This document shows, one piece after another, positions 1,950-16,482 of a DNA stretch of 41,325 nucleotides. The stretch is from a virus. The notes under the pieces were generated by a model. It had not been told where the DNA came from. It searched no databases and saw nothing but the letters and a program-made list of their open reading frames with translations. The DNA is taken from IMG/VR virus record IMGVR_UViG_3300027782_002219, positions 1 to 41,325 of that record. One strand, given 5' to 3'. Every line of letters starts with the position of its first letter. The stretch's first letter is position 1. The translations under genes and the position numbers were made by a program.

Positions 1950-3959
1950 TTAAGTCTTATGGATTTCACTTGACAACTCAGGATCTTTCTGATACTTTTC
2001 TGGACTGTCTGATTTCTTACCTTTAGAGGCATTCATCACGATTTGTGCTTTGCGTGAATACCCTTGCTTACCTTTCATTTCTCCTTCGGTTGGTTCCGAT
2101 GCAGATTCTTTCTTCATAATGCTAAGTTTATTAGCAGGATTACCTCCACCAAACATTCCATCAAAAGCATTGCGTGCCTGTTGCTTAGTGTCTGCTTTTT
2201 TACTTGATGTTCTACTCAATGCCTGTCGTGCTAAGTTTCTTGCCTTAGACATTGGCGTGTGTTTAGCACCAGATTTGTCAGTTGTTGTTCCTGTATCTTG
2301 CTTATATGGTTTGTTGAATGGTACATCATGTGACGATTCTATGTTCAGAGTTTTTGGATAATCCTTGTCTCCTGGTTTTGCAGGAGATTCTCCACGCTTA
2401 CGTTTAGCATGAATGTTTGCCCATAGACCAGGTAGATTCTTCTTCTCATCGAATTGTTCAACATCTTCGTTGACATGACCATATTTCTTTTTGTACCAAT
2501 CGGGCATACCACTTGTTTTACGGAAATGGCGTACAGTTGCCGAATCATTTGCTTGATCACGATATTTGTTTTCTGCTTGTGGATTGTGACTCTTCATTGC
2601 TTCGGCAGCAGCATGTGCATCTTTGGCAATGTGAACCAATGCTTCATTCGACTTCTTGTGATACTCATGACCTTCTAAAGGGTGACGTTGTGATGCACGA
2701 CCTTCATCCATACGACCACTATTTGCAAGTCGTTCTTTGCGCCTTTGTGCTGCAAAATCTGCACCTTGTGGTATTTTCTTATTAGAAAGTGGATTCTTTT
2801 GACGTTTGGTTGCGGCTGCAAAATTCTTATTGTTTTTATCAATCTTTCTTTGATAATCGTTTTCATCTTCTTGAACAACTTCTTCTTTGACTGGATGATA
2901 TCCTTGTTGTTTATATCTCTCAACTGCTCTTTTCGTTACAACCAATTCTTTACCTGATTGATGATGTTTGACTTTAGTGGTTTCTTCTTTAGATGGAACA
3001 GCACCTTCATTCATTTCTGAACGCATGTAATTGGCAACAGTTGATAAATAATCTTCCGCAAGAGTAATCTTTGACTGACACCACTCTGCTAGATTAGTGG
3101 TATCTTCAATCATATCATGCAGTTCTTTAGCATGATGCATGATTGAACGCAAATCAGATTTGGCCATGTCGCCTTCGTAATCATACTCTTGTGAATCTTT
3201 TGCTTCTCTTAGTTTTGGATGTGTCTCTTTCATTTTCTTCCCCAAATCGGTTAGAGCAGATTTTAGTCTTTTCTGTAATTCTGTTTTTGGTTTAGATGGT
3301 ATGTTCTCTAATTCACTGCCATCTTTTGGTCCAGGATTTCTATCGTACATATGAACGTTTGCACCACGACTACCCATACCACCAATTCTGAAACTCTCTT
3401 CAACTTTTGATGCTTTCATAATACCACGGATCAATGGTGCTTTCAATTGATTGTGTCGCGGCACTGGAATAGAATGTTTTGCCTTTGGATGTTTGTAGAC
3501 ATCATGACCACCACTGCTACGTGCCAGTGCCCATCCAGATTTCTTCAGATGAGAATGTACATCACGTGTTTTCATACTTGATTCTGGCATCTCATCCAAC
3601 AGTTCAACTTCTTCATTTGCTTTGGCAATACCTTTTTGGCGTTTGGCAATAAAGTTCTTGGCAATGTCTCTATACTCATCAGTCTTTTTAGTAAAAGGTA
3701 GAGATTGTTTTATCTGCTTCTTGGCACCAGATACATACGATGTTTTGAGTTGTGCAGAAATTTCATCCAACTGCTCTTGCGACAGTGGACCATCATCTTC
3801 TTCGTAATTTTCCGACTTCATCGAATCAAGTTTCTTCTTATACTCGGACGGATCAGGAAGACCAGCGGCCTTCCTGTTCTTTTGCTGTTGAGCATGAAGT
3901 CTCTCAGCAGCAGTCGGTGTCGGCATCTTGAAGTTAATTTTAAGTTTCTTCGTTGCCAC
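1950..3959 (-). CDS. Mosaic prohead-interior-type protein with embedded HicA-like domain (669 aa)
   Basis: A very hydrophilic, lysine- and glutamate-rich protein built of short modules also seen in other marine T4-like phage head-region proteins, for example NLPGLWANIHAKRKRGE and GDMAKSDLRSIMHHAKEL. Residues about 129-185 match the HicA/YcfA mRNA-interferase fold: a basic helix (KTRDVHSHLKKSGW), the strand carrying the putative catalytic histidine H152 (SSGGHDVYKHP), then the SIPVPRH strand and the LIRGIMKAS helix. Sites of the form LDE occur at residues 64-66 and 121-123, the second just before the HicA-like part; L/I-x-E is the cleavage rule of the T4 prohead protease gp21. The start is GTG, preceded by AAAGGATTAATC. 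Membership of the prohead core is inferred. No HicB antitoxin is adjacent. Confidence 0.8.
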   Translation of the reverse strand: MATKKLKINFKMPTPTAAERLHAQQQKNRKAAGLPDPSEYKKKLDSMKSENYEEDDGPLSQEQLDEISAQLKTSYVSGAKKQIKQSLPFTKKTDEYRDIAKNFIAKRQKGIAKANEEVELLDEMPESSMKTRDVHSHLKKSGWALARSSGGHDVYKHPKAKHSIPVPRHNQLKAPLIRGIMKASKVEESFRIGGMGSRGANVHMYDRNPGPKDGSELENIPSKPKTELQKRLKSALTDLGKKMKETHPKLREAKDSQEYDYEGDMAKSDLRSIMHHAKELHDMIEDTTNLAEWCQSKITLAEDYLSTVANYMRSEMNEGAVPSKEETTKVKHHQSGKELVVTKRAVERYKQQGYHPVKEEVVQEDENDYQRKIDKNNKNFAAATKRQKNPLSNKKIPQGADFAAQRRKERLANSGRMDEGRASQRHPLEGHEYHKKSNEALVHIAKDAHAAAEAMKSHNPQAENKYRDQANDSATVRHFRKTSGMPDWYKKKYGHVNEDVEQFDEKKNLPGLWANIHAKRKRGESPAKPGDKDYPKTLNIESSHDVPFNKPYKQDTGTTTDKSGAKHTPMSKARNLARQALSRTSSKKADTKQQARNAFDGMFGGGNPANKLSIMKKESASEPTEGEMKGKQGYSRKAQIVMNASKGKKSDSPEKYQKDPELSSEIHKT

Positions 3960-3961
3960 GA

Positions 3962-4948
3962 TTAATCCTTTTTAGTCAAACGATCAACTGCTTTATTAAT
4001 ACCTCTTTCACGATTTCGACTTATTTTAGATAATTTCATTTTATCTTTGCTGTCACCACGTTTGTCGGATATTCTTCCATGCTTGAAATCTGCCATACCA
4101 CCTGAGTAATGTGCTTTCTTAACATACATTGAAAGAGTATCTTTTGACAATTCATCGATCTGTTCAACTTCTTCTTGCTTCACTGCTTGAACGGATGGTT
4201 TAGCAACTTCTGCCTTCTTACCACGACCAGCATTCTTTTCTTTCTGTGCTTCAACTTCTTTGGTGAATGTTTCATTATCCACTTCTTCAGCAACAGTGAT
4301 ACCAACTACACCGTTTACTTCGTTAGCATCAATCAGTTCAACTTCAGTATCACCAAACTTTACTGTTTGTGGAGCAATTTTATTGATAACTTCTATACCA
4401 TGTTCGTTATATAAATGAAGCATTTCTGTGAATGAAAGTTTTTCTTCTTTCATAGTTTTTTTCCTGCCATCACTTTGGCCACGTTTACCCATGTTCTGAC
4501 GAGCACCATAACCTTTTTGTGCTCTCTTAGGTGAACTTGTCATTTTCTTGGATTCATCTTCTTCTTTATCCCAATCGGTTTCACCATATTGTATGCCTTT
4601 TTCCAACTTTGCTTTGTGTTTAAAGACACCACCTTTGGACTCATATTCATCCAACTGCTCAACTTCTTCTTTCATTTTACCTGCTGCCTTAGCGGCACGA
4701 ATACGTGAACCAAGAAATTCTGATTTTCCAGATTCGACCTTACCATCACCATCATGATCTTTCTTGGCCATCTTTTCTGATTCTTCTTTCATGCCTTTTT
4801 TACCACGTAGAAGTTTAAAGTCGTGAGCATCAACTTTGCCATTCTTGTTGGCATCAATTTTATGCTGATTACCTTTAAGTTCTTCATCCATAATCTTTGC
4901 TACTGCTGCTGCTACACCTTTCAGTGCTTTATCGTTGAAAATTGACAT
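3962..4948 (-). CDS. Mosaic prohead-interior-type protein with EF-hand-like loops (328 aa)
   Basis: A hydrophilic protein of K/E-rich modules related in style to its neighbour. Two calcium-loop-like segments are visible: DANKNGKVDAHD at residues 32-43, which has all the usual EF-hand positions, and DHDGDGKVESG at about 64-74, which is less complete. The motif EEVEQ[LI]DE occurs twice (residues about 94-101 and 259-266), each time giving an L/IxE triplet of the kind cut by T4 gp21. The second copy is followed by LSKDTLSMYVKKAH, which resembles QLDEISAQLKTSYVSGAKK in the 669-aa protein. The start ATG has a strong AGGAG seven bases upstream. The role is probably an internal head or scaffold protein; calcium binding is untested. 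Confidence 0.75.
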   Translation of the reverse strand: MSIFNDKALKGVAAAVAKIMDEELKGNQHKIDANKNGKVDAHDFKLLRGKKGMKEESEKMAKKDHDGDGKVESGKSEFLGSRIRAAKAAGKMKEEVEQLDEYESKGGVFKHKAKLEKGIQYGETDWDKEEDESKKMTSSPKRAQKGYGARQNMGKRGQSDGRKKTMKEEKLSFTEMLHLYNEHGIEVINKIAPQTVKFGDTEVELIDANEVNGVVGITVAEEVDNETFTKEVEAQKEKNAGRGKKAEVAKPSVQAVKQEEVEQIDELSKDTLSMYVKKAHYSGGMADFKHGRISDKRGDSKDKMKLSKISRNRERGINKAVDRLTKKD

Positions 4949-4969: not shown

Positions 4970-5419
4970 TTAGCAATTCCATTTACGCAAAGACTTATTG
5001 ATACGTGAATCTGGATCATTCGCAGTCTTTGCTGATGTTAATTTTTTCTTCATTCCACCCATTCTAGCACAGAATGATTTTCGTCTGTTTGCTGCTTTTG
5101 AATCTGGTTTCAGTTTACTGGGTTCAGTGGTCACTGCCATAGATAACTTTGAGCCTGGGTTTGCAGCACGATATGCAGCAATACCTTTACGACTCATACC
5201 ACCATCAGGATTTTTTAATTCATTTTCATCCAATTCGATTTCTTCGTTTTTAGGTGTGACACCTTTTTTCTTCATGCTGATGGCAATCGCTGCTTGTTGT
5301 GCGGCATTTGCTGCTTCTTTTACACAAGAATCTGGTGAGTATGCTTTTTTACCTTTTACGGGTTTATATCCTGTCCAGCAACGACCTGCTTCGGTTATAA
5401 AGTCTTTGAATTGTTTCAT
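4970..5419 (-). CDS. Probable packaged protein with T4-like capsid-targeting N-terminus (149 aa)
   Basis: The N-terminus MKQFKDFITE|A closely parallels the T4 capsid-targeting peptide MKTYQEFIAE|A, including the [IL]xE processing triplet. The rest is a basic, cysteine-containing protein with conserved blocks that I have seen in many marine T4-like phages: CWTGYKPVKGKKAYSPDSCV near the start, SRKGIAAYRAANPGSKL in the middle, and RKSFCARMGGMKKKL plus a terminal LRKWNC. An additional LDE lies at residues 63-65. It overlaps the upstream gene by ATGA. The four paired cysteines could bind metal or form disulfides, but no enzyme signature is visible. Packaging into the head is inferred from the peptide. 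Confidence 0.75.
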   Translation of the reverse strand: MKQFKDFITEAGRCWTGYKPVKGKKAYSPDSCVKEAANAAQQAAIAISMKKKGVTPKNEEIELDENELKNPDGGMSRKGIAAYRAANPGSKLSMAVTTEPSKLKPDSKAANRRKSFCARMGGMKKKLTSAKTANDPDSRINKSLRKWNC

Positions 5420-7680
5420 ACGTAATTTCTCTTTTTAAATGACGTTAGTGATATGCCTTTTTTCTTCAACTCATCTTCTTTTTGATCGCCAATAGATGCA
5501 CCTGTTTCATCACCAGTTAGTTCAGCAAGTCTACAATTTTTTGCGCCATGTTTCGGACATGAAATTCCAGCAGAAGTTCCATTACAAGTAACTTGCGTTG
5601 CTTTACCTTGTTTATCCAACTTCTCACCCATATCTCTTGCAGGTGATTCACCAGCACCTGCCATCGAAATGCCTGGTTCTATCCCTTTGTCGATTGACTC
5701 TTGGACTTTCTTTTTGAGGTTGTTGAGGGTAATTTTGGGGCGGGAGTTACTTCCGTTTCCGTAAGATTCACTGACAGGTTTGTCGAGGGCAGGTTTTCCT
5801 TTTGGTCTAAAGTTGGTTCCAACTTTACCAAGTTGTTTTGCATCGGGGGTGGAGATATTTTGTCCATAAACTGCTTCAATAGCATTATTAGTTGGTGAAG
5901 ATATTTCATTTAAGTCCTCTCTAATTTTAACAACATACGATTTACCAATCTTGTGAACTATACCATTATTACGATGTGCTTCTTTTGCTGCTGACATGCG
6001 GAAATGAAATACTCTTGGTTTTCCATTTATGTCTGATATGAGTTTTTGTTTTTTCTTTTCATCCTCAAAGAAATCCTCAAATGCTTCATTTACTTTTTTC
6101 TTAGCATCTCTCTTACGGTCATGACGATTAGATGCCGTTCTAACTTTTACAGTAGATCCAGAACGATTTGGTTGTATACCAGAAGCCTTAGCAATTTTCT
6201 TTTGATGAGTTTCAACTGTCTTAGCAATCTTCTCAACAGGCACTAAACGATCATGAATAGAACGATGTGTTACTTTACCACCTTTACCATAGCGACCAAA
6301 TCCATAATACTCAAGACCCATCGTGTTCATCTCATCATTAGTCTTTGCGGTTGGATGAGGTTGCGCTGTCTTACTGATTGGTGCAGTATCTTTCTGTCCT
6401 AATTGTGATGCAATCCAATGTTTTGCTTTTTCATTCTTAGGAGGCGCATTCACAAACTTTTCTATTTCTTTGTGAATTTGCACCATCTCTTCTTTTTTTG
6501 CTTTTACAACATCGGGTGATGCATTACGCAAATCTTCAGAGTTATCAAACTCAATGTAATTATTACGGAATAGTTTACCAAACTCGGCACGGGCCGCTTG
6601 TACTGCTTCCCACTTTTGTTTACGAATATTTTCTGGTACTGTACGACCACCATTCTGACCACGTTCTATATTTCTTGATTTTGACACTTCATCTGCGGTA
6701 TTAACCATGATCATTGAAGTATCATAACCTAACTTGTCCAGACGTTTCTTAATCTCCATATATTCTTTTGGATCAGCACCAGTACCATTAATGATCAATC
6801 CATTACGCCCTTGAAGTGCCATAAGGTGACGAATCTCAGCAACATCTTTCGCTTTTTTACGAATAACATTACGTTGTGCTTCTTCATTATCTGGCATTTT
6901 TTTGTCAAGATTTTCTTTATCCATCAGATACTCTAATGCTTTATCTGAATTAATTTCGATCATGCCATGTCCATCAAGGGTATTTGATAGGACATAATCT
7001 TTACCAGAACCAGGACCACCACCTAAGAATACTGCTTTGAATATGCCTTTATCATGTACGCCTTCTTCTAGAATAGATTCATGCAGATTCATACCTTTGC
7101 GAACATCATTGTACATGTGTTTAGCATGTTCGTCCGACATTGAAGATGGGGCACCTTTTCTAAATTCTTTAAAGTTACCCTTGCCCGCATGGTCACGCAT
7201 CTTAGATGCTGAAATGCCAGTTGTGCCTTCTGCATCTGGATCACGTTCACCAGCAGAATGCACTTTGATGGATTTAAAATTATACAAGGCACCTTTGTGT
7301 GTTCCATTGTATTGATGAAGATACTTTTTAAAATCTTCGGCACGATCCGAACCACCAACCATATGAAGATGAGTTACACCTTGTTTGTGTAATTTCTCCG
7401 CTTGTTTTAAATATGTTGGATGCTCTTTATCGGATGTAGAAAAGTTGGTACCAGGAAACGCACGTTTGGCGTGTTTGAGTTTTTGTGCTGCGGTAAGAGG
7501 ATTCTTCTTGGAGTCCTGTGAGTGTGACAGAACGATATGATGAGAACCACCGACAGAATCGGCAATATCTTTGACTTTTTTGATTAATTTTTCGTGGCCA
7601 GAAGTAATTGGGTTCATACGCCCAAATGCTAGTACAGCATGTTTTTCCTTCTGCTCTCGCAGAAAATCGCTAAATTTCAT
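5416..7680 (-). CDS. Cytidylyltransferase-like / P-loop kinase fusion with capsid-targeting N-terminus (754 aa)
   Basis: Residues 1-9, MKFSDFLRE, look like a T4 capsid-targeting peptide ending in an LxE site. Residues about 14-170 form a nucleotidylyltransferase domain: AFGRMNPITSGHEKLI gives the (T/H)xGH motif and GISASKMR the ISxxxxR motif typical of NMN, pantetheine-phosphate and related adenylyl- or cytidylyltransferases. Residues about 214-400 form a P-loop kinase with Walker A GGGPGSGKD (220-228) and a zeta-toxin/AAA_33-like arginine region. The two domains are joined through ILEEG, another LxE site. The C-terminal 300 residues are basic mosaic sequence with a C-x8-C cluster and the segment GDETGASIGDQKEDELKKKG. 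The substrate is unknown; a NadR-like NAD role is possible but unproven. It precedes the packaged-type genes. Confidence 0.8.
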   Translation of the reverse strand: MKFSDFLREQKEKHAVLAFGRMNPITSGHEKLIKKVKDIADSVGGSHHIVLSHSQDSKKNPLTAAQKLKHAKRAFPGTNFSTSDKEHPTYLKQAEKLHKQGVTHLHMVGGSDRAEDFKKYLHQYNGTHKGALYNFKSIKVHSAGERDPDAEGTTGISASKMRDHAGKGNFKEFRKGAPSSMSDEHAKHMYNDVRKGMNLHESILEEGVHDKGIFKAVFLGGGPGSGKDYVLSNTLDGHGMIEINSDKALEYLMDKENLDKKMPDNEEAQRNVIRKKAKDVAEIRHLMALQGRNGLIINGTGADPKEYMEIKKRLDKLGYDTSMIMVNTADEVSKSRNIERGQNGGRTVPENIRKQKWEAVQAARAEFGKLFRNNYIEFDNSEDLRNASPDVVKAKKEEMVQIHKEIEKFVNAPPKNEKAKHWIASQLGQKDTAPISKTAQPHPTAKTNDEMNTMGLEYYGFGRYGKGGKVTHRSIHDRLVPVEKIAKTVETHQKKIAKASGIQPNRSGSTVKVRTASNRHDRKRDAKKKVNEAFEDFFEDEKKKQKLISDINGKPRVFHFRMSAAKEAHRNNGIVHKIGKSYVVKIREDLNEISSPTNNAIEAVYGQNISTPDAKQLGKVGTNFRPKGKPALDKPVSESYGNGSNSRPKITLNNLKKKVQESIDKGIEPGISMAGAGESPARDMGEKLDKQGKATQVTCNGTSAGISCPKHGAKNCRLAELTGDETGASIGDQKEDELKKKGISLTSFKKRNYV

Positions 7681-12483: not shown

Positions 12484-12762
12484 TTAATTATAAATTAGTT
12501 CCCTGTTATCCTCAATCAATGCTATAATCGCATGAGTACCTATTTTGACTTGTTCTTCAGTTAGATTCAAACCATAAGCATCACTTACTAAATGTAACAC
12601 CTCATGAAATACTGCTATTCGTTGTGTCTGCTCGGTATGATCTTTGTTGATAGAAATTAGTTGGCGATTGAAATCTGCTGTTCCAACCAACCCATTCATT
12701 TCTTCTGTAGATTTCATTGCAATGCTATAATCAATACCTGCTATTTTAATTGTGTCTTTCAC
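12484..12762 (-). CDS. Small HExxH metallopeptidase-like protein (92 aa)
   Basis: A 92-residue protein with the zinc motif FHEVLHLVSD (H53, E54, H57) in a helix, as in ImmA/IrrE-like and SprT-like peptidases. It is much shorter than full ImmA proteins and shows no clear third ligand. The start is GTG, overlapping the upstream stop as GTGA, so it is translationally coupled to the packaged-type gene before it. Possible roles are cleavage of a host regulator or of a phage protein; neither is shown by the sequence. Confidence 0.75.
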   Translation of the reverse strand: MKDTIKIAGIDYSIAMKSTEEMNGLVGTADFNRQLISINKDHTEQTQRIAVFHEVLHLVSDAYGLNLTEEQVKIGTHAIIALIEDNRELIYN

Positions 12763-13163
12763 TTTTTATATTTCTTATATAGTTTCTTACTTTGACCAGG
12801 AGTATCACTTAAATATTTGTCTCTAAGTTCTGGTCTACCCCACTCACCAGCACCTGCTTTTGAAACAAACTCTTGCTTTTCACGGATTGGTTTATTCATC
12901 ATATATGCCATGTCCGCTTTGTTACTGAATTCTTTTACCCAACTAAACTTTGTTGAAGCAGGAATCCATTTTTGACCAAGACTGTTCTTACCTCTAGCAA
13001 AATCACTATCAACCATTAACCAATCTTTGTCTTTACTGAATGCAACTGTATGTGCTTTTTTCAGTAACCGAACAATCTTTCCCGTCTTTTCTAGTTTACC
13101 TAGAGTTATTACGTCCTTGTCATATATATTCGTTTCGAATAAATGTTCTTTAAAAGTTTTCAT
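12759..13163 (-). CDS. Small protein with T4-like capsid-targeting N-terminus (134 aa)
   Basis: The ATG at 13163 forms an ATGA overlap with the upstream carrier gene, the usual arrangement in this operon, so I prefer it over the in-frame ATG at 13184. From this start the protein begins MKTFKEHLFE|T, nearly the same layout as T4 MKTYQEFIAE|A with an LxE cleavage triplet. The remaining 124 residues are basic and end in LSDTPGQSKKLYKKYKK; a W-G-R-P-E-L segment precedes this. I recognise no catalytic motif. It is probably carried in the head if the peptide works as in T4. Confidence 0.7.
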   Translation of the reverse strand: MKTFKEHLFETNIYDKDVITLGKLEKTGKIVRLLKKAHTVAFSKDKDWLMVDSDFARGKNSLGQKWIPASTKFSWVKEFSNKADMAYMMNKPIREKQEFVSKAGAGEWGRPELRDKYLSDTPGQSKKLYKKYKK

Positions 13164-13863: not shown

Positions 13864-14135
13864 TATCCCCTCGTTAAGGTTAATATTTTCTGTATCTGTT
13901 TCTCAATGATTGGACCACGATTAGGCCAATGAATATATGGTTGTGTCTGTGACTTTAAAAGATTGGTCAGAAAAGGCATGATAATCTTTTCTACTTGTGC
14001 CAATCTTGTTTTGTATTCTTCTACCGTTTCATCTTTCTCTGCAATGACTGCATCATACTCTGCCTCATCAACTGTGGTAAATCCAAAGTCATCATCACCA
14101 TACTCTGCCATAATTTTGTTTATATCGTATTCCAT
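13863..14135 (-). CDS. Conserved small T4-like phage protein, unknown function (90 aa)
   Basis: A 90-residue protein: an acidic N-terminus (MAEYGDDDFGFTTVDEAEYD), a helix likely to form a coiled coil (KDETVEEYKTRLAQVEKIIMP), and a C-terminal YIHWPNRGPIIEKQIQKIL block. The WPNR...I..QI.KIL pattern is one that I associate with small proteins of T4-like phages of aquatic bacteria. Their function is not known to me. It is joined by TAATG overlaps to the RNA-ligase-like gene upstream and to iscU downstream. Confidence 0.75.
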   Translation of the reverse strand: MEYDINKIMAEYGDDDFGFTTVDEAEYDAVIAEKDETVEEYKTRLAQVEKIIMPFLTNLLKSQTQPYIHWPNRGPIIEKQIQKILTLTRG

Positions 14136-15361
14136 TATTTACTCCAATTCTTGGCAGCATTAAAGTTTTGATGACTGAACTCTAATCGATCAACCAGTTT
14201 CAATGCATTACCTTTTAGTTTATCTACAGCAACAAATCCTTCTGGTGCTGTGCTTTTGAAACCACTGTCTGTACGTACAAATGTGCCAATTGATCTAATG
14301 GTTTCCAATTTACGAATGATCATAAGTTTTGCTTCAATGATCATATTCATCAAATCAAATACATTCTTTAATTGAGCGGCATTAGTACGATAGAATCGCA
14401 TGACTTCTGTTTTCTCTTTGATGCGCTTTTCTTTTGTATCTGCTTTCTTTGCTGCTAGTATTTCTTTATTGAGTCTATCTTCCACCCATTTCATTAACCC
14501 ATTTACATGTGCTCTGGTATCACGAATCTCTTGACCTTCACGCACTTTGGTGTTGTTGTACGTTTTGATCTGCATCAGATAAGTTTCGGACGATGATATT
14601 TTATTCAATGTCAGTGCAGGTATTGTAGTAAACAATCTTCCTGCTTGTGAAAGAATGGATGTAAGATCAGCAGTTTCTTTTTCTGTAAACGTAGCAGAAC
14701 CAGAGGCATCAGTGAATGATGCGTCACGAAACCAAACATCTTTCGTTGTTGTTAGATGTCCCAAATCAATGTTGAAGGATGCTTTCATGTTTTCAATATC
14801 TTTGCCCGTGTATGATGTATGAAACACCACACCAAGTTGTGCCGCCATCATCATCTTTGCAAGTTTAGTATTTGCTGGTACAGCATACACAATCGTATTT
14901 GGTTGAAAGGTAATATACTCTTCACCTTCAATTGTTTGTGGAGTCAGATCATCTTTGGTAAACATCATATCACCCTGTAGAATACCTTTAATGCCTAACT
15001 TTGGTAGATACGCAAGTGCAATCTTTAGTTTATTGTTTAGACCTTCTGCCGCATGGTTCTCATCAATATCTTCATCAGTATAATTTAGTTTGGCATTCTT
15101 GTTAAACACTGATTTTGTACCAACAAAAAATTTACCATTCTCTGGGTTGATACCAGCAAAGATAGCAGGTGACCCGTCCCATTTTGTAGTAACATTCACT
15201 TTAACATCAGAGTGACCTGCTAACATATTACGGAGTGAACGCAGAAAATTAATTGCTTCTCTTGCACCAGACACACCATTATTCAATACATTATCTTCCA
15301 AATGTTCTAGATGAACATTCTTGCCTTCTTTTGCTTCTGTTATGTATTCTAAAAATTTCAT
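14135..15361 (-). CDS. RNA-ligase-like nucleotidyltransferase with capsid-targeting N-terminus (408 aa)
   Basis: The N-terminus MKFLEYITE|A again matches the T4 capsid-targeting layout with an IxE site. Residues 57-64 (VTTKWDGS) look like motif I of the covalent nucleotidyltransferases (ATP-dependent RNA/DNA ligases, capping enzymes), K60 being the candidate AMP-linked lysine. FFVGTKS (78-84) fits motif III, ILQGDMMF (127-134) motif IV, and LMQIKTYN (262-269) motif V. The C-terminal third is helical and basic. T4 RNA ligases are not packaged, so an RNA-ligase-like enzyme in the head would be new to me. The start ATG shares a TAATG overlap with the upstream gene. Ligase activity is inferred from motifs alone; other nucleotidyl transfers are possible. 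Confidence 0.78.
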   Translation of the reverse strand: MKFLEYITEAKEGKNVHLEHLEDNVLNNGVSGAREAINFLRSLRNMLAGHSDVKVNVTTKWDGSPAIFAGINPENGKFFVGTKSVFNKNAKLNYTDEDIDENHAAEGLNNKLKIALAYLPKLGIKGILQGDMMFTKDDLTPQTIEGEEYITFQPNTIVYAVPANTKLAKMMMAAQLGVVFHTSYTGKDIENMKASFNIDLGHLTTTKDVWFRDASFTDASGSATFTEKETADLTSILSQAGRLFTTIPALTLNKISSSETYLMQIKTYNNTKVREGQEIRDTRAHVNGLMKWVEDRLNKEILAAKKADTKEKRIKEKTEVMRFYRTNAAQLKNVFDLMNMIIEAKLMIIRKLETIRSIGTFVRTDSGFKSTAPEGFVAVDKLKGNALKLVDRLEFSHQNFNAAKNWSK

Positions 15362-16474: not shown

Positions 16475-16482
16475 TATTTATA
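16475..16482 (-). promoter_or_regulatory. T4-type late promoter (TATAAATA)
   Basis: The minus strand reads TATAAATA, a perfect match to the T4 late promoter -10-like element recognised by gp55-RNA polymerase. It overlaps the stop codon of the helicase gene and lies about 32 bases before the ATG of the 360-aa gene. It would drive the long coupled operon that contains the ligase-like gene, iscU, the A-type carrier and the sugar cassette. A gp55 gene is present in this window. Confidence 0.75.

Follow-up and report, generated by a model that had tools for sequence, protein, structure and literature searches.

The window analysed here, a 41,325-nucleotide stretch of viral DNA (IMG/VR record IMGVR_UViG_3300027782_002219), raises the question of what a toxin-like domain is doing inside a large mosaic phage protein. 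The protein, of 669 residues, is encoded from a GTG start at 1950-3959 on the minus strand, as are all the window features given below, and Pfam recognises no domain in it other than HicA, which lies amid many shuffled modules. An earlier sequence-only reading had noticed a HicA/YcfA pattern at about residues 129-185, directly preceded by LLDE, a site of the [LI]xE type cut by prohead proteases. It had proposed that a toxin-like RNase is made as part of a scaffold-like polyprotein, released in the head and injected with the DNA.

The identity of the domain could be established by several approaches. The Pfam profile HicA_toxin (PF07927) matches residues 132-184 (3408-3566) at 38.8 bits (E 1e-9), where the cut-off is 27, and a six-frame search of the genome recovered the same segment at 42.8 bits; all 12 related contigs searched with this profile likewise score above the cut-off. 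PHROG 353, annotated as 'toxin', matches residues 127-186, and the best PDB sequence matches of the protein are HicA proteins, including that of Burkholderia pseudomallei, so that the pattern noticed earlier is borne out. PADLOC defence-system annotation and NCBIfam added nothing for this protein. An AlphaFold2 model of residues 124-190 built with 20 sequences (pLDDT 85) has the element order H-E-E-E-H, which corresponds to the dsRBD-like topology of HicA, and the five best PDB matches found by Foldseek are all HicA/YcfA structures: 6g26 (two chains), 1whz, 4c26 and 4p78. The superposition on 6g26 gives TM-scores of 0.76/0.83-0.85 with an rmsd of 1.1 A. The full-length model, by comparison, has a mean pLDDT of 53 and is mostly of low confidence, too poor to serve as a query in a fold search.

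Alignment to 4c26, which carries the H24A substitution, equates G150-G151-H152 (3504-3512) with G22-S23-H24 of B. pseudomallei HicA, in which G22C and H24A abolish toxicity (PMC3969222). The GGH triplet is invariant in the 20-sequence alignment of relatives, and H152 lies in the conserved histidine region that the sequence-only reading had pointed out. Comparisons of the window domain with its relatives gave, for example, dN values of 0.02-0.18 and dS values of 0.29-2.3, with dN/dS of about 0.07-0.2, and the median pN/pS over all pairs is 0.23; hence, the domain evolves under purifying selection. Profile, fold and conserved catalytic residues together rule out a chance match, and residues 132-184 are confirmed as a member of the HicA family by sequence, predicted fold and key residues.

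The domain is unaccompanied by an antitoxin: the HicB families PF05534 and PF15919 found no match in the window or in the 8-10 longest related contigs searched, in agreement with the earlier remark that no HicB is nearby, and an ordinary HicAB pair is thereby ruled out. Recent capture from a bacterium was likewise rejected, as a search for cellular relatives of the cassette yielded five loci at 32-40% identity and no close one. Nor did we find a cyanophage isolate with the mosaic cassette; the matches in phages QB2 and S-M1 are to a separate small HicA-like ORF elsewhere. The ORF of Synechococcus phage QB2 (L047:5938-6198) encodes 86 residues, scores exactly at the Pfam cut-off and lies outside any mosaic protein. 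The psbA family PF00124 had no match in ten related contigs of up to 172 kb (G001, G002 and eight others), and consequently the hosts of these phages may not be marine cyanobacteria.

The want of an antitoxin bears on whether the domain is a toxin at all. The HicA fold, being dsRBD-like and positively charged, might have been co-opted by an internal head protein as a basic bead without catalytic function, which helps to condense DNA or binds RNA, either in the head or in the newly infected host. The composition of the locus is congenial to this idea, with Lys and Arg making up 0.19-0.21 of the residues in the HicA gene group against about 0.12 in most other ORFs, as is the rest of the protein, which appears as a mosaic of mostly low-confidence helical modules. 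However, G150 and H152, whose counterparts in B. pseudomallei HicA are essential for toxicity, do not vary among the aligned relatives and would not be needed for mere binding. We therefore regard a purely binding role as unlikely, if still the best placed of the alternatives, and consider it slightly more likely than not that the HicA module is active as an RNase.

Where such a protein might act is suggested by its neighbours. Directly upstream of the HicA gene lies one for a lysine-rich protein of 328 residues (3962-4948) with dockerin/EF-hand-like (calcium-binding) loops, and the next two genes, directly upstream of this pair, encode a 149-residue DUF6321 protein (4970-5419) and a 754-residue protein combining a nucleotidyltransferase with a zeta-toxin-like kinase (5416-7680). 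Both of the latter begin with leaders resembling that of T4 IPIII: MKQFKDFITE, with a predicted cut before A, in the DUF6321 protein and MKFSDFLRE, followed by Q, in the fusion protein. Two further window genes, for a 134-residue protein (12759-13163) and a DUF6267 protein (14135-15361), have leaders of the same kind, MKTFKEHLFE followed by T and MKFLEYITE followed by A, respectively. As a separate observation, the nucleotidyltransferase/zeta-toxin-like kinase fusion might itself be a second toxin-related cargo beside HicA. On the other side of the HicA gene, a 220-residue protein (MSLWGNLDASNNAP..., 1240-1902) occupies the position of a cyanophage virion structural protein, as judged by synteny with P-HM2, S-WAM2 and S-SZBM1. 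With P-HM2 and S-WAM2 the window shares a gene order that runs from DUF6267 through the cytidyltransferase, the motif proteins and the virion structural protein to DUF7207, and S-SZBM1 has a similar one.

The late-promoter-like element ATAAATA is strongly under-represented in the window (4 occurrences on both strands against 14.3 expected), and two of its four copies are placed 32-33 nt before genes, as expected of a late promoter. One (1935-1941) is 33 nt upstream of the gene for the 220-residue protein and the other (16475-16481) 32 nt upstream of a gene for a 360-residue protein that precedes the DUF6267 gene; both are found at the same places in contigs G001 and G002. In two related contigs the element also stands before the scaffold gene. 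For the HicA gene itself we found no copy of it.

We formulated the leaders as a strict pattern, M-K-x-[FY]-x-x-[FY]-[IL]-x-E. In 50 kb of T4 it retrieves only IPII and IPIII, and in the whole six-frame S-CREM2 genome exactly four ORFs, the SAM hydrolase, gp13, the APH-like kinase and the cytidylyltransferase (positions 5081, 10546 and 12846 of record L060 and 124608 of L056). All four are in the S-CREM2 virion proteome of 52 proteins (PMC10665884; hypergeometric P 0.003), a result to be read with the fact that T4 and the window had been inspected before the pattern was drawn up, and that the S-CREM2 leaders too had been seen before its exact form was fixed. In the scanned part of S-SZBM1 it matches the virion-detected cytidylyltransferase, and two further leader ORFs of that phage (122628 and 123125; genes 191 and 192) are absent from the portion of its virion proteome table that was consulted. 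A similar stretch, RFASFMAE followed by A, occurs near the N-terminus of the virion-detected Cas9-like gp12 of S-CREM2. The 669-residue protein, unlike the four window genes named above, does not match the leader pattern, and among the forms of the HicA protein only those of L011 (LKFRKLRE then G) and L017 (YFSAMRE then G) look leader-like.

Homologues of several proteins of the locus have been detected in virions. The locus of relative L002 has, upstream of its HicA gene, a longer homologue of the 149-residue protein with the leader MKEFNQFVKE, and this DUF6321 protein is 53% identical over 190 residues to S-CREM2 gp160, detected in the virion by 7 peptides. S-SZBM1_139, detected by 4 peptides, contains a module of the form CWKGYK..G.K.K.G..VP.C that recurs in the HicA polyproteins of two relatives, L009 and L025. 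Cytidyltransferase homologues of the 754-residue protein were detected in the virions of S-SM1 (PMC3037559), S-CREM2 and S-SZBM1, as was S-SZBM1_136, which is syntenic with the position of the 220-residue gene. The authors of the proteomes caution that abundant non-virion proteins may persist through CsCl purification. We also noted that S-CREM2 gp156 (L056:6513-7226), a virion-detected protein with an NTP_transf_2 match encoded beside the cytidylyltransferase, is a possible injected enzyme. A search for an isolate with the HicA mosaic protein, or for a virion proteome of its phage group, found none. Because the neighbours bear leaders and have homologues in virion proteomes, we take the HicA neighbourhood to be a virion-cargo locus, and we infer from homology and context that the 669-residue protein is packaged; its association with the virion thus appears probable.

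Alternatively, the protein could work in the cytosol of the infected cell rather than in the virion, for instance as an RNase in mRNA turnover, with the acidic motif to which LLDE belongs as a signal that a host or phage protein would recognise for docking or degradation. This would account for a HicA protein that is devoid of a clear targeting leader, which is also the main weakness of the cargo reading, and it would fit both the location of the locus among replication genes and the lack of direct proteomic detection of the HicA protein. However, it has to contend with a gene order that is the same as that of cyanophage loci with virion-detected members, and with modules that are homologous to virion proteins. 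Moreover, similar acidic sites are present in head-core proteins of G001, namely DKVELVDE in the scaffold gene beside gp23 and EEIEVDEDVLEE in a 153-residue core protein. Taken together, these points make a cytosolic role improbable.

The remaining evidence for a cargo polyprotein comes from the acidic motif itself. The site before the HicA domain is EEVELLDE (residues 116-123; 3591-3614), and it ends exactly where the HicA cassette begins with MPESS, as the sequence-only reading had recognised for its LLDE part. The protein has a second motif-like site, EQLDE (residues 62-66; 3762-3776), and a third copy, DVEQFDE (residues 499-505; 2445-2465), which stands before the KKNLPGLWANIHAKRKRGESPAKPGDKDYPKTL module common to cyanophages. 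This module of some 33 residues, within residues 506-543 (about 2331-2444), recurs at about 80-96% identity in many functionally uncharacterised cyanophage proteins. The 328-residue neighbour has two copies, EEVEQLDE and EEVEQIDE, and the DUF6321 protein one, EEIELDE. In a scan of viral contigs we obtained 29 relatives with the HicA cassette, and in all 29 the cassette is preceded by the motif E(E/D/S/T)(V/I/T)E-x-(L/M)-(D/E)-E, usually as EEVEQLDE; in most of them residues resembling SEE-x-E(I)DE follow it. Upstream of the junction between motif and HicA the relatives have modules of several unrelated types, and a YPSAYANGW module that is near the C-terminus in most of them comes directly behind HicA in L011.

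Across the loci, 60 motif-bearing proteins have 119 copies of the motif against 0.45 expected from composition shuffles, where the fair excess is about 59 extra copies since these proteins were chosen for having at least one copy each. When the motif was masked, 20.2% of the ends of local alignments fell within 8 residues of it, against 6-9% for equal-sized random masks. Copies of the motif delimit modules throughout a family of adjoining mosaic proteins. The [LI]xE triplet alone is common, and its density by itself does not discriminate; some such triplets also sit inside modules, which counts against the cargo reading. In T4, gp21 cuts after L/I-x-E (PMC9026906), and the hydrophobic-x-Glu end of the motif fits this rule, with L or M at P3 in the relatives; EEVELLDE is located in a low-confidence linker (residues 110-129) of the full-length model. 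On the opposing side, the P2 residue of LLDE is Asp and Met follows at P1'. On balance, cleavage at LLDE seems somewhat more likely than not. That the motif is just a flexible linker or a recombination landmark easing module exchange, with no proteolysis, would agree with its place at module junctions, but seems very unlikely because the 28 copies of EEVEQLDE have 18 different DNA spellings, indicating that amino acids rather than DNA homology are under selection, and because a plain linker would not need the terminal hydrophobic-x-Glu.

We return to the cargo reading, in which the 669-residue protein is packaged in the head and the prohead protease liberates its HicA part, which is then ejected along with the DNA; as a whole, we hold it to be evenly poised between right and wrong. 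The protein would be made late with its neighbours of the cargo locus and would enter the prohead core, where leaderless HicA proteins may be admitted through interactions along the chain, as, in our interpretation, are T4 core proteins without an IPIII-type leader. A gp21-type protease would then cut the acidic L/I/M-x-E linkers, and the freed pieces would leave with the DNA. Among them, a small basic HicA fragment with M124 as its first residue would act as an RNase that lacks an antitoxin and degrades the RNA of the next host as infection begins. An active HicA without an antitoxin might harm the producing cell, which speaks against this reading; conceivably, a toxin held inside a larger precursor and released only in the head would be tolerated in the absence of HicB. 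The sequence-only reading's idea of a polyprotein with pieces carried in the head finds support from far more than a single site, namely from the motif junction in all 29 relatives, the leaders of the neighbours and the virion-detected homologues of neighbours and modules; 'scaffold' is better replaced by virion cargo. More tentatively, and with slightly less confidence than in the case of this protein, a group of aquatic T4-like phages might deploy cargo polyproteins with swappable cassettes, including an antitoxin-free HicA RNase, and with prohead-protease sites between them; matured by that protease into separate effectors, the cassettes would leave the head together with the genome, and a toxin domain would become an injected takeover tool.

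If true, this would extend the idea of the T4 internal proteins to modular cargo with repeated protease sites, and a family of toxins familiar from toxin-antitoxin pairs would acquire a part in delivery by the virion. It would also provide a simple sequence rule, a leader combined with acidic L/I-x-E linkers, by which to predict, among the uncharacterised proteins of very abundant phages of aquatic habitats, those that enter the host together with the DNA; its leader part is checkable on existing virion proteomes, as in S-CREM2, where every ORF that it picked is a virion protein. In the part of the literature that our search covered, we came across neither a report of HicA as virion cargo nor one of cargo polyproteins delimited by a motif.

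Among known systems, the toxins of HicAB pairs, such as B. pseudomallei HicA (4c26/6g26), resemble the phage domain in profile, predicted fold and the catalytic Gly and His. However, the phage HicA is embedded in a larger protein, has no HicB, comes from a lytic-type T4-like phage and shows only about 35% identity with the few cellular relatives that the search recovered. The polyvalent proteins, large multidomain phage effectors that are injected (PMC9503650, PMC7824862), similarly combine several modules in one polypeptide and are thought to travel in the virion. In contrast to them, the phage HicA protein has protease-like sites between its modules as well as a HicA domain, of which we found no mention in either of these papers. 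The T4 proteins IPI-III and Alt, which are targeted to the capsid, processed by gp21 and ejected, are paralleled by the basic composition of the locus and by the N-terminal leaders of the neighbouring genes ending in [IL]xE. Yet each T4 internal protein is small, stands alone and is cut once, at its N-terminal end, whereas here there are several cassettes with repeated sites and the HicA protein is leaderless. Finally, the virion-associated regulatory proteins of S-CREM2 (SAM hydrolase, APH-like kinase and cytidylyltransferase), although no HicA domain has been reported for them, have in common with the present locus the leader pattern, the cytidyltransferase-centred gene arrangement and the modules of gp160.
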